Notes under the pieces: generated by a model
Told to the model about the DNA's origin: nothing
Seen by the model: the letters and a program-made list of their open reading frames with translations, nothing else
The model's database searches: none
Position numbers and translations under genes: made by a program
In this document: in pieces, positions 1,844 to 4,929 of the stretch
Numbering within the stretch: the stretch's first letter is position 1
Layout of the letters: every line of letters starts with the position of its first letter
Assembly: GCA_009392515.1 (NCBI GenBank)
Contig: VFGE01000021.1
Span: 1 to 43,568, forward strand
DNA: 43,568 bases
Source of the DNA: SAR202 cluster bacterium
GTDB taxonomy: Bacteria > Chloroflexota > Dehalococcoidia > Lucifugimonadales > UBA6952
Direction: 5' to 3'

Positions 1844-1880
1844 CATGGAGCCACCGATGAGAACTGAACTCATGGCCTAC
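1844..1880 (-). repeat. partial copy of the tRNA-Thr 3' half (att-like repeat)
   Basis: These 37 bases match 4853-4889 with two mismatches. They correspond to the last two bases of the anticodon stem, the variable loop, T arm, 3' acceptor strand, discriminator and CCA of the tRNA-Thr gene, in the same orientation. No D arm or anticodon loop follows, so it is not a functional tRNA. Placed about 3 kb beyond the 3' end of the intact gene, it is what remains at the far end after integration of an element into a tRNA 3' end. The rest of the 1663-2008 gap holds the promoter below and a stretch at 1881-1970 I cannot assign. Confidence 0.85.
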
Positions 1881-1978
1881 TGTAGGCACCAAACCTAGCA
1901 TATAGGAATCAAACCTTCCTGTTTATAGCTCTTTATAACAGCTTAATACTGTTGATATACCGACCACTTATGGGGATA

Positions 1979-1987
1979 TGCTATAAT
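1979..1987 (+). promoter_or_regulatory. extended -10 promoter of the Asp-box lipoprotein gene
   Basis: TG at 1979-1980, one base, then a perfect TATAAT at 1982-1987. There is no convincing -35 at 16-18 bases, which an extended -10 can tolerate. Transcription would start near 1994, giving a leader of about 15 bases with a GAGAG ribosome site. Confidence 0.55.
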
Positions 1988-2008
1988 CCCACGCAAAGAG
2001 AGTAATTT

Positions 2009-4672
2009 ATGAAGAATTTTATTATTACAAATATAGTATTAATAGTACTAATTTCTTGTGGCGGTTCTACTACCGAAGCACCAGAGGTTTCTATTCAAAC
2101 ACCAGAGGCTACTATTGAAGTACATGCAACAATTGATTCTGGAATAACTGCGAGATTAGATGAAACACCAAAACTAGAATCTACACAAACTCCACAACCA
2201 AAGGCATCTGATTCTACTCAACCAAAAAATACAATAAAAATAAACACTTCAGATGAGGAAAAGGTCAACAATCAGAATAATATTGAATCAAGCCAAGCTG
2301 GTAACTTTACTTTGCAGTGTGTATCGAGTACAAACGACTCTCTCAATACATGGGTAAAGACTAAAGGACCAATTGGAGGTTTGGGATATAACGTACGATA
2401 TAGACATGATAAACCAAATATAATGTACTTTACTGATGCGTGGTCAGGAATACAAAAAAGTACGGATGGAGGCCAAAATTGGACTCAATCTAATGGAGAA
2501 GGGGAAGGGGTTATTGATTTTCGAGTCGGGCCTTCATTAGATAATATTCCTGTCTTTGCCCTTAGAATAGATCCGAATGATGAAGATATTATATGGATAG
2601 GCCTGCAAGATAACGGGGGTCTCTATAAATCATACAATGGAGGACAGTCTTGGGAATCAAAACATAATGGCTTAGACTCAAATAAAATTATTCCGCAACA
2701 AAAAACACAAAATTCAGATGAAGAAGATGATACTTCCGAGTTGCAATTAAACGTCAGAATGATTGAAGTTGAACCAGGAAATTCAGATGTCGTTTATGTC
2801 ATGGGTGACGTGGACACACAAATAGATGGATTCCAATTTAATCGTACTCGAGGATTTGTATTTAAATCTACTGATGGAGGTGAGCAATTTGAACTGGTTG
2901 GTGATTTTGCAAATTTAACTAGATGGCTTTTTTTTACGAATTCGAATGACACTGAAGAATTACTCGTTACTACAGGACTATTCGACCGTGAACCTGACAC
3001 AGCAGCAGAAAAAGAATATGGAGAGATTTCTGACGATGCCATGCCAAGCGGACTTGGGGTAGGAGTCTTTAAATCAAATGACGGGGGCAAAAACTGGTAT
3101 GAAAGTAATCAGGGGATTAACCCAAAACGGTCCATGCATTTTGGTGGAGCAGACCAGAGTCCATTTGATGAAAAACTAATCATCATTGCAAGCGGAAACG
3201 ACGTCGATAACTTTCTTCGCGATTACCCAGGAGCGATTTATAAATCTATAGATGGAGGAGCTTCTTGGCAGGATGTATCACCTCTTTATTCAGGATTAGG
3301 GATGTTCGGCGCGGTCGCATTTGCTGAGTCTGATAAAAACATTGTTTATGTTGCAGGAGAAAATGAATTTCTTCGTTCGACAGATCAGGGAGAAACATGG
3401 AGCATACAAGAGCATTGGGGACCCCCAGGAATAAAGCCAGGGAATCCCATTGATATGGTAGTAAGTAAGACTAATCCTAATATTGTATTCATTAACAATT
3501 ATGGTGGTGGTGTTTTTAAAACTGAAGATGGTGGAAAAACTTGGATCGAATGGAGTAACGGTTATTCGGGTGCAAACATATTTGGCATTTCTGTTAGCCG
3601 TACTGGTTGTTTAGCTGCAAATGGGCGAAGTCAAATACACCTTTCTGATGACTTTGGCGAGACCTGGCAGGGTATTCAATATGGCAAATCCAAGAGTCTA
3701 GGAGATGGTCTAGCTATTAAATTCTTATCGCACGATGATACCAATCAAACCCTTATTGCAACTGATGCTAATAATGGGCGTCTTTATTACTCAAGCAATC
3801 TAGGCAATGACTGGGAAATAGCTACAGGATTAGTAAACATAGAACATTCTTTATTTGAAGAAGCGTTTGGGATACATATTGTCGAGGAAGCAGTCTCAAA
3901 TCCAACGGTATTGTATGCTGGTTATATTCAATCAAACATTAAAGGACATGATCCTCATCAATTAGACGAAATTGAACAGTCACCAGGAATGTACAAATCT
4001 GTTGATGGAGGAATATCCTGGTTCCCAATCAATAATGGGCTACCCAATGAAGACTACAGCCGTAATATATCAGATATTACTGTTAGTAGTCAGAATGAAG
4101 ACGTAGTCTATATCAATTCATTGTTTGATGGGTTGTACTATACAGTTGATGGTGGTGAATTTTGGGAACATCTTACAGGTAAGTTACCAGCGGGTATGTC
4201 ATGGGATGATTGTGGGCATACGTGTGTTAATGAGGATGGTCAAAGAATAGACATGGAAGATATGGAACATTCTAAAATGATTCAACGTAAACACGCGATG
4301 AGTATTGCAATTAATCCTCAAAACGACCAAGAGATATTTCTAGGTACCAATGTTCATGGTGTTTATAAATCCATTGATGGTGGATCAAGTTGGGAAGAAA
4401 CACTTTGGCGTACTGAGGCGATCAATACCTCGAAACGTGACCACGCACACGCAATTGATATTGCAATTAACCCAATAGATACGAAGATCATTGCTATCGC
4501 CGATTGGAATAGTGGTGTGCTGTTGAGCCAAGATGGAGGCGAGTCTTGGCAACGAATTAACCAAGAATTAGATACAGGAGTAGTACAAGTGATAATATTT
4601 TCACCAAATGGACAATATCTTTTTGCTGGTACTGAAGGACATGGCATATTTCGGTATAAACTCTTTGATTAA
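2009..4672 (+). CDS. secreted Asp-box (BNR/VPS10-like) beta-propeller lipoprotein, 887 aa
   Basis: Residues 1-17 form a lipoprotein signal with the lipobox ending LISC; Cys17 would be lipidated, placing the protein outside the cytoplasmic membrane. Residues 18-100 are a Thr/Pro/Glu/Ser-rich linker. The rest is a large repeat region with 13 recognisable Asp boxes (S/T-x-D-x-G-x-x-W type), from STDGGQNW at 151-158 to SQDGGESW at 840-847. This is typical of sortilin/VPS10-like and BNR-repeat propellers. Such folds bind or hydrolyse glycans or act as binding scaffolds. I see no clear glycosidase catalytic motif, so a binding role is as likely as an enzymatic one. The gene lies between a tRNA-Thr fragment and a decayed integrase end, so it is probably the cargo of an old integration. 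It is monocistronic. Confidence 0.85.
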   Translation: MKNFIITNIVLIVLISCGGSTTEAPEVSIQTPEATIEVHATIDSGITARLDETPKLESTQTPQPKASDSTQPKNTIKINTSDEEKVNNQNNIESSQAGNFTLQCVSSTNDSLNTWVKTKGPIGGLGYNVRYRHDKPNIMYFTDAWSGIQKSTDGGQNWTQSNGEGEGVIDFRVGPSLDNIPVFALRIDPNDEDIIWIGLQDNGGLYKSYNGGQSWESKHNGLDSNKIIPQQKTQNSDEEDDTSELQLNVRMIEVEPGNSDVVYVMGDVDTQIDGFQFNRTRGFVFKSTDGGEQFELVGDFANLTRWLFFTNSNDTEELLVTTGLFDREPDTAAEKEYGEISDDAMPSGLGVGVFKSNDGGKNWYESNQGINPKRSMHFGGADQSPFDEKLIIIASGNDVDNFLRDYPGAIYKSIDGGASWQDVSPLYSGLGMFGAVAFAESDKNIVYVAGENEFLRSTDQGETWSIQEHWGPPGIKPGNPIDMVVSKTNPNIVFINNYGGGVFKTEDGGKTWIEWSNGYSGANIFGISVSRTGCLAANGRSQIHLSDDFGETWQGIQYGKSKSLGDGLAIKFLSHDDTNQTLIATDANNGRLYYSSNLGNDWEIATGLVNIEHSLFEEAFGIHIVEEAVSNPTVLYAGYIQSNIKGHDPHQLDEIEQSPGMYKSVDGGISWFPINNGLPNEDYSRNISDITVSSQNEDVVYINSLFDGLYYTVDGGEFWEHLTGKLPAGMSWDDCGHTCVNEDGQRIDMEDMEHSKMIQRKHAMSIAINPQNDQEIFLGTNVHGVYKSIDGGSSWEETLWRTEAINTSKRDHAHAIDIAINPIDTKIIAIADWNSGVLLSQDGGESWQRINQELDTGVVQVIIFSPNGQYLFAGTEGHGIFRYKLFD

Positions 4673-4679
4673 CCCTCCT

Positions 4680-4769
4680 CACTACTCGCTAATGGATATT
4701 TACTCCGCTCTTACTCCTAATATGCAGCGAGATGCTATAAAAGACTTCCCACTTTTGACCCATTCTTGA
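4680..4769 (+). pseudogene. C-terminal stub of a tyrosine recombinase (integrase)
   Basis: One open stretch reads MDIYSALTPNMQRDAIKDF from the ATG at 4692 to the TGA at 4767-4769. The arrangement [T/M]-D-[I/T]-Y-S-x-x-x-P-x-M-Q-x-x-A is the well-known end of phage-type integrases, including the nucleophilic Tyr and the helix after it. A preceding His-Tyr-Ser may be the remnant of the GHS-S segment with several residues lost. Everything upstream is missing: the lipoprotein gene stops at 4672. It sits about 85 bases from the 3' end of tRNA-Thr and points towards it, as an integrase gene next to its att site would. It cannot encode a functional enzyme. Confidence 0.6.
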
Positions 4770-4809
4770 AGCTCTACGCAGTCATTTAAGCAGTCATTTT
4801 GATTTTAAG

Positions 4810-4841
4810 AGCCTTTGAGTTAACGCTTAGAGGCTATTTTT
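4810..4841 (+). terminator. rho-independent terminator
   Basis: AGCCTTTGAG at 4810-4819 pairs with CTTAGAGGCT at 4826-4835 (ten pairs, two of them G-T), with a six-base loop and then ATTTTT. It would stop rightward transcription from the lipoprotein/integrase region before it reaches the opposing tRNA-Thr gene. The reverse strand lacks a T tract, so it does not serve the tRNA. Confidence 0.65.
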
Positions 4842-4854
4842 AGGTTCAAAATCA

Positions 4855-4929
4855 TGGAGCCACCGATGAGAATTGAACTCATGACCTACGGTTTACGAAA
4901 CCGTTGCTCTACCCCTGAGCTACGGTGGC
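4855..4929 (-). tRNA. tRNA-Thr (anticodon CGT), CCA encoded
   Basis: On the minus strand the 75 bases fold into a standard cloverleaf. The acceptor GCCACCG pairs with CGGTGGC, the D stem is GCTC/GAGC, the anticodon stem ACGGT/ACCGT carries loop TTCGTAA, and the T arm is ATGAG-TTCAATT-CTCAT. The discriminator is T and the CCA end is encoded. Anticodon CGT reads the Thr codon ACG. The gene is intact, but partial copies of its 3' half (1844-1880) and 5' half (7287-7318) lie on either side, marking it as an integration target. Confidence 0.95.

Follow-up and report, generated by a model that had tools for sequence, protein, structure and literature searches.

Both an anticodon-loop class and a rarer 5′-fragment class (159 of 3919 islands) are known among the islands found by Islander (PMC4383910). 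CIME and tandem islands have been discussed for the ssrA islands of Dehalococcoides, which also belongs to the Chloroflexota (PMC3146451), and tycheposons are marine cargo elements of 4–200 kb that retain their recombinase (PMC10872708). We analysed a 43,568-nt stretch of DNA, hereafter the window, from a SAR202 cluster bacterium (Chloroflexota; Dehalococcoidia; Lucifugimonadales; UBA6952; GCA_009392515.1, contig VFGE01000021.1, positions 1–43,568; genome G000 in our set), in which the contig start is window position 1.

Like the Islander islands, the locus pairs an intact tRNA with a displaced cognate fragment that shares its orientation, lies on the correct side and is more than 2 kb away (PMC4383910). 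Unlike them, it has a 28-codon stub in place of an integrase ORF, so that Islander's integrase filter would reject it, and its tRNA is flanked by its own 3′ half on one side and its own 5′ half on the other. It also resembles a CIME in that cargo apparently flanked by att copies lies at an RNA gene with no working recombinase, in the same phylum (PMC3146451); the content is that of a CIME, with no recombination or transfer genes between the putative att copies, just the lipoprotein gene and the stub. The Dehalococcoides islands differ in that they use ssrA and serine recombinases, whereas this locus has tRNA-Thr and a tyrosine recombinase stub. With tycheposons it shares tRNA-bordered cargo islands, marine bacteria and tyrosine recombinases, the recombinase here being only a stub (PMC10872708). 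It further recalls the tRNA-dependent lysogeny of phages, in which a tyrosine integrase splits the host tRNA and an intact tRNA of the same isotype lies inside the insert (PMC10865867). It departs from that system in three respects: no phage genes were recognised, alignments of the fragment ends gave no clear common core of 8–17 bp, and the integrase remnants abut the intact tRNA.

Layout of the locus

The features of the locus and the evidence for each are as follows.

1844–1883, minus strand: displaced 3′ half of tRNA-Thr, putative far end of the 3′-side element (BLAST; match score)
2009–4672, plus strand: cargo lipoprotein gene, 887 aa, Asp-box tandem beta-propeller with predicted GH74-like fold (ORF; Pfam; Foldseek)
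2184–4672, plus strand: part of the lipoprotein gene whose DNA is about 90% identical to that of homologues from other SAR202 families (blastn)
4683–4769, plus strand: integrase stub of 28 C-terminal codons plus the stop codon, containing the active-site Tyr motif (custom profile; pattern specificity)
4778–4799, plus strand: tandem direct repeat, two copies of GCAGTCATTT with period 12, probable integrase arm-type site (repeat scan)
4810–4835, plus strand: terminator-like hairpin in the interval between stub and tRNA (consensus scan; count not above chance expectation)
4855–4929, minus strand: intact tRNA-Thr(CGT), putative shared attachment site (ARAGORN)
4941–4969, minus strand: promoter-like TTGATA-17-TAAAAT before the intact tRNA (consensus scan, 10/12; such matches are no proof of function)
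4930–7283, no strand: 5′-side segment (ORFs, Pfam, BLAST, profile, repeat scan)
5051–5785, minus strand: NAD(P)-binding protein gene, in the 5′-side segment
6124–7101, minus strand: GC-rich 2-hydroxyacid dehydrogenase gene, in the 5′-side segment
7128–7265, minus strand: 45-aa frame, in the 5′-side segment
7284–7321, minus strand: displaced 5′ half of tRNA-Thr, including 8 nt from upstream of the tRNA (BLAST; match score)

Between 1884 and 4854 the lipoprotein gene is the sole large gene, accompanied by the stub frame, which contains MDIYSALTPNMQRDA and ends at 4769. The ORFs thereby bore out a first-pass annotation of this DNA, which had placed only an 887-aa Asp-box lipoprotein gene and a short frame between a partial tRNA copy and the tRNA. 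In the 5′-side segment, a profile search and a repeat scan found neither an integrase nor an arm repeat. The 2-hydroxyacid dehydrogenase gene in this segment has a GC content of about 0.55, against about 0.34 in the region, which hints at a foreign origin. On the minus strand, the displaced 5′ half leads directly into an AAAGGAG stretch resembling a ribosome site and the 45-aa frame (7128–7283), so that the old tRNA promoter may now be driving this frame. Elsewhere in the window there are two repeats unrelated to the island, a pair of 158 bp (69%) and an inverted one of 34 bp (42811–43109 and 24006–24039).

Two displaced fragments of tRNA-Thr

The first-pass annotation had reported a 37-bp copy of the tRNA 3′ half at 1844–1880, with two mismatches and in the same orientation as the tRNA at 4855–4929, and both BLAST and match scores confirmed it. 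The copy corresponds to 4853–4889, and BLAST lengthens it to 40 bp (1844–1883 against 4853–4892, 92.5% identity). On the other side of the tRNA, BLAST aligned 38 bp at 7284–7321 with 4900–4937 at 94.7% identity. Ungapped match scores were 29 for the 3′ half and 27 for the 5′ half; as a control, 60 shuffled tRNAs were scored in the same way, and their best matches averaged 10.5 (sd 1.1, maximum 15). The third-best score in the window, 9, is noise, so that there are just two fragments of this tRNA in the window, one per side. Geometry and orientation are right on both sides, with the 3′ half downstream of the tRNA and the 5′ half upstream. Together, the two fragments amount to nearly the whole tRNA, the gap being confined to the anticodon arm.

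Position 58 of the tRNA T-loop is almost always A. The displaced 3′ half has a G there, as expected of a dead copy. Around the anticodon loop the 1844 copy has also lost its match to the tRNA, and the window fragments both end before this loop or are degenerate there, whereas the fragments in relatives extend into it. The absent or degenerate match fits a site at which recombination would no longer be possible. Alignments of the two fragment ends gave no clear common core, and a DNA profile search of the tRNA-Thr neighbourhoods in other relatives returned no more fragment copies.

An integrase stub and an arm-like repeat beside the tRNA

The short frame next to the tRNA had been proposed to be the last 25 codons of a tyrosine integrase. 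The frame had no match in Pfam, PDB or phage records, and its protein, searched against 197 genomes, returned only the stub itself. We therefore built a custom profile from the C-terminal region of integrases of related genomes (21 gathered by motif, 18 of them distinct). Over all six frames of the window, the stub ranked first with an E-value of 0.009, and the next match had 1.3. This E-value is modest; the stub has the C-terminal active-site Tyr motif, and the catalytic R-K-H-R of a complete recombinase domain is absent from it, only the last 28 codons being present. The proposed C-terminal remnant thus stood, at 28 codons instead of 25, and its recombinase similarity was seen with the custom profile and not with Pfam. 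Across 250 genomes of the order, a degenerate DNA pattern of the stub motif matched twice, at the stub and at a true integrase in G013, and a reversed control of the pattern gave zero matches. The two PF00589 proteins of the genome are both on other contigs.

The tandem 10-bp repeat GCAGTCATTT begins 8 bp past the stop codon of the stub and is the only one of its kind in the 43.5-kb window. An exact tandem repeat, counted as a run of 9–13 bases with a period of 10–12, is present at or near the stop codon in 17 of the 18 profile integrases; in three of the 17 it lies 42–66 bases inside the gene. In G027, G056 and G038 the repeat unit on the integrase side is found again close to the element's far end, and from this recurrence we infer that the tandem repeat may be an arm-type integrase binding site. 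The profile match, the arm-site-like repeat and the geometry seen in G027 support the view that the stub is the genuine end of an integrase.

Intact elements at the same tRNA in relatives

Complete integrases, for which the first-pass annotation had suggested searching related genomes, are found at the same tRNA. In G027 a full integrase is convergent on the 3′ end of tRNA-Thr(CGT), 71 bp from it (85 bp in the window), and tRNA nt 31–75 are displaced 9.4 kb away. This is the geometry of the window, and the earlier placement of an integrase next to the tRNA agrees with it. In G056 and G038 the integrase lies on the 5′ side of the tRNA, and the displaced fragments are nt 1–37 and 1–41, respectively. 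G008 and G013 also have a 5′-side integrase, with no tRNA copy within the fetched stretch. In these relatives tRNA-Thr(CGT) appears to receive elements on its 3′ and on its 5′ side, and the window resembles the two types in decay.

The congener G001 is colinear with the window at 87% from 8398 rightwards and has nothing of window 1–8397 at this place, where a stomatin-like gene lies instead. We sought an empty tRNA-Thr site in this genome and found none, everything left of 8398 being absent from it.

The cargo gene and its locations in other genomes

The lipoprotein has Pfam matches to Sortilin-Vps10 and BNR and contains 13 Asp boxes. Its structure model has a pLDDT of 65 (medium confidence), and the best PDB matches found by Foldseek are nearly all GH74, with a TM to target of about 0.6–0.66. 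The model best matches a GH74-like fold of tandem seven-bladed Asp-box propellers. The predicted likeness to GH74 glycoside hydrolases is one of fold, at an identity of 13–16%.

From about 2184 to the stop codon, the DNA of the lipoprotein gene is about 90% identical to its homologues in G029, BB06, G058 and SAT182 (blastn), and the protein shares about 88% of its amino acids with genomes of other families; the DnaN proteins of G000 and G058 are only 52% identical. The divergence at fourfold sites to full-length homologues is 0.21–0.25. For 15 colinear core genes of G000 and its congener G001 it is 0.23–0.51, mostly above 0.31, so that the lipoprotein gene is less diverged across families than most core genes are from the congener. 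These comparisons indicate that the gene crossed family borders recently. It is patchy in family f29, being present in 6 of 76 genomes and in one of these as a fragment only; in G167 (L164 1500–1988), just the last 492 bp remain. Homologues were absent from viral contigs and phage records, and plasmids yielded only distant ones.

In G029 the gene sits immediately 3′ of tRNA-Lys, and after it 15 bp of the tRNA-Lys end are repeated exactly. In the close relative BB06 this tRNA-Lys site is empty, the tRNA leading directly to its neighbouring gene; the lipoprotein gene is 3.2 kb away (L064 1350–7600), with a 10-bp tandem arm-like repeat just behind it. The right end of the BB06 lipoprotein region, TTTGCGGGGCACCATT, resembles another tRNA acceptor end. 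In G018 (L082 16939–17010) the gene lies near tRNA-Gly; between the two are a tandem repeat of the arm-like kind and a decayed match to the T-arm, 11 bp long. In SAT13 and SAT182 it follows dnaN; direct repeats were sought around it there, and the candidates were unconvincing. No tRNA adjoins the gene in G058, SAT182 or G206. After tRNA-Lys(CTT) in G177 (L167 2147–2335) there is a short frame that, judged by eye, resembles a fragment of a phage or plasmid primase-polymerase. The lipoprotein gene is oriented toward the tRNA in the window and away from it in G029 and G018, which argues that these are not the same insertion unit. Homology of the locus to other genomes at the DNA level stops at the stop codon of the lipoprotein gene.

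Discussion

The locus is probably an island in decay, in which a single tRNA-Thr(CGT) has taken insertions on its two sides. On the 3′ side of the tRNA, an element with a tyrosine integrase would have inserted and provided a new 3′ half, moving the old one to 1844. A later deletion would have spared only the final 28 codons of the integrase and a single arm-site pair, with the laterally transferred gene for a GH74-like surface lipoprotein left as the sole cargo. On the 5′ side, a second element would have inserted and provided a new 5′ half, with the old one moved to 7284–7321, and its integrase would then have been lost. The working tRNA-Thr would consist of two halves supplied by elements. 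Because the 1844 copy does not match at the anticodon loop, the crossover region in relatives, the island has probably lost its mobility. We observe the two fragments, the stub, the arm-like pair, intact parallels of each type in relatives and a recent transfer of the cargo gene; that the events were two, that the integrase gene was deleted and that mobility was lost is our inference. What counts against this reading is that the second (5′) event would rest on one 38-bp fragment and the parallels, since the 5′-side segment holds neither integrase nor arm repeat, and that no empty tRNA-Thr site was found in a close relative. The modest profile E-value of the stub and the differing orientation of the lipoprotein gene in G029 and G018 also speak against it. 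The reduced mobile element of the first-pass annotation is supported by the stub, the repeat and G027; that account was incomplete in missing the 5′-half copy at 7284–7321, and a recent exchange of cargo between families is to be added to it. No relative was found that keeps the 3′-half copy in place without the lipoprotein gene, and the profile search did reveal recombinase similarity in the stub, these being the two points on which the annotation had offered itself to refutation.

The main rival, which we regard as unlikely, is that a single element split the host tRNA-Thr at the anticodon region and carried a complete tRNA-Thr inside, as in the tRNA-dependent lysogeny of phages, leaving the 5′ half at 7284–7321 and the 3′ half at 1844. 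Two fragments that sum to nearly a whole tRNA, with a gap in the anticodon arm only, are what such an event would leave, and the arrangement is known from actinobacteriophages. The stub and the arm pair, however, adjoin the intact tRNA, a position like that of the G027 integrase, for which this tRNA forms the att junction; relatives carry one-sided elements of each type; the two fragment ends share no clear common core; and neither phage structural genes nor other phage genes were recognised in 1844–7321 (ORFs, Pfam). We give still less weight to an origin without any integrase, by duplication or homologous recombination with the stub as a chance match, which seems very improbable: Pfam, PDB and phage searches missed the stub and its profile E-value is modest, but stub, arm pair and both fragments lie just where integrase-bearing relatives at the same tRNA predict.

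The distribution of the cargo raises another possibility, namely that the lipoprotein gene is an active cassette of cargo and att that lacks an integrase and moves in trans between tRNA genes, the stub being a chance remnant of a helper element. The same cargo lies at tRNA-Thr in G000, at tRNA-Lys with a direct repeat in G029 and near tRNA-Gly in G018; BB06 has an arm-like repeat just past the gene, and G018 has one next to tRNA-Gly; and presence within one family is patchy. We nevertheless judge this quite improbable, given that the orientation to the tRNA varies, that three genomes carry the gene with no adjoining tRNA, that the far att copy in the window is decayed, and that homology ends at the stop codon, leaving no cassette end in common with this locus. 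A more elaborate form of the idea is a minimal cassette of cargo, one arm-site pair and a tRNA-end core that, with integrases borrowed in trans, continues to move between SAR202 families and from one tRNA gene to another (Thr, Lys, perhaps Gly), the tRNA-Thr having been rebuilt piecemeal from two such insertions; this too is rather unlikely.

On the preferred reading of a decayed, two-sided island, it seems that a single tRNA gene was exchanged bit by bit at its two ends, and island finders that need an integrase would not see such a locus. Intact elements of both types survive at this tRNA in relatives. A tandem repeat like the one next to the stub would serve as an easily computed marker of islands that are dead or lack an integrase. 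SAR202 is an abundant ocean clade, and the locus gives a concrete route for gene transfer across its families.
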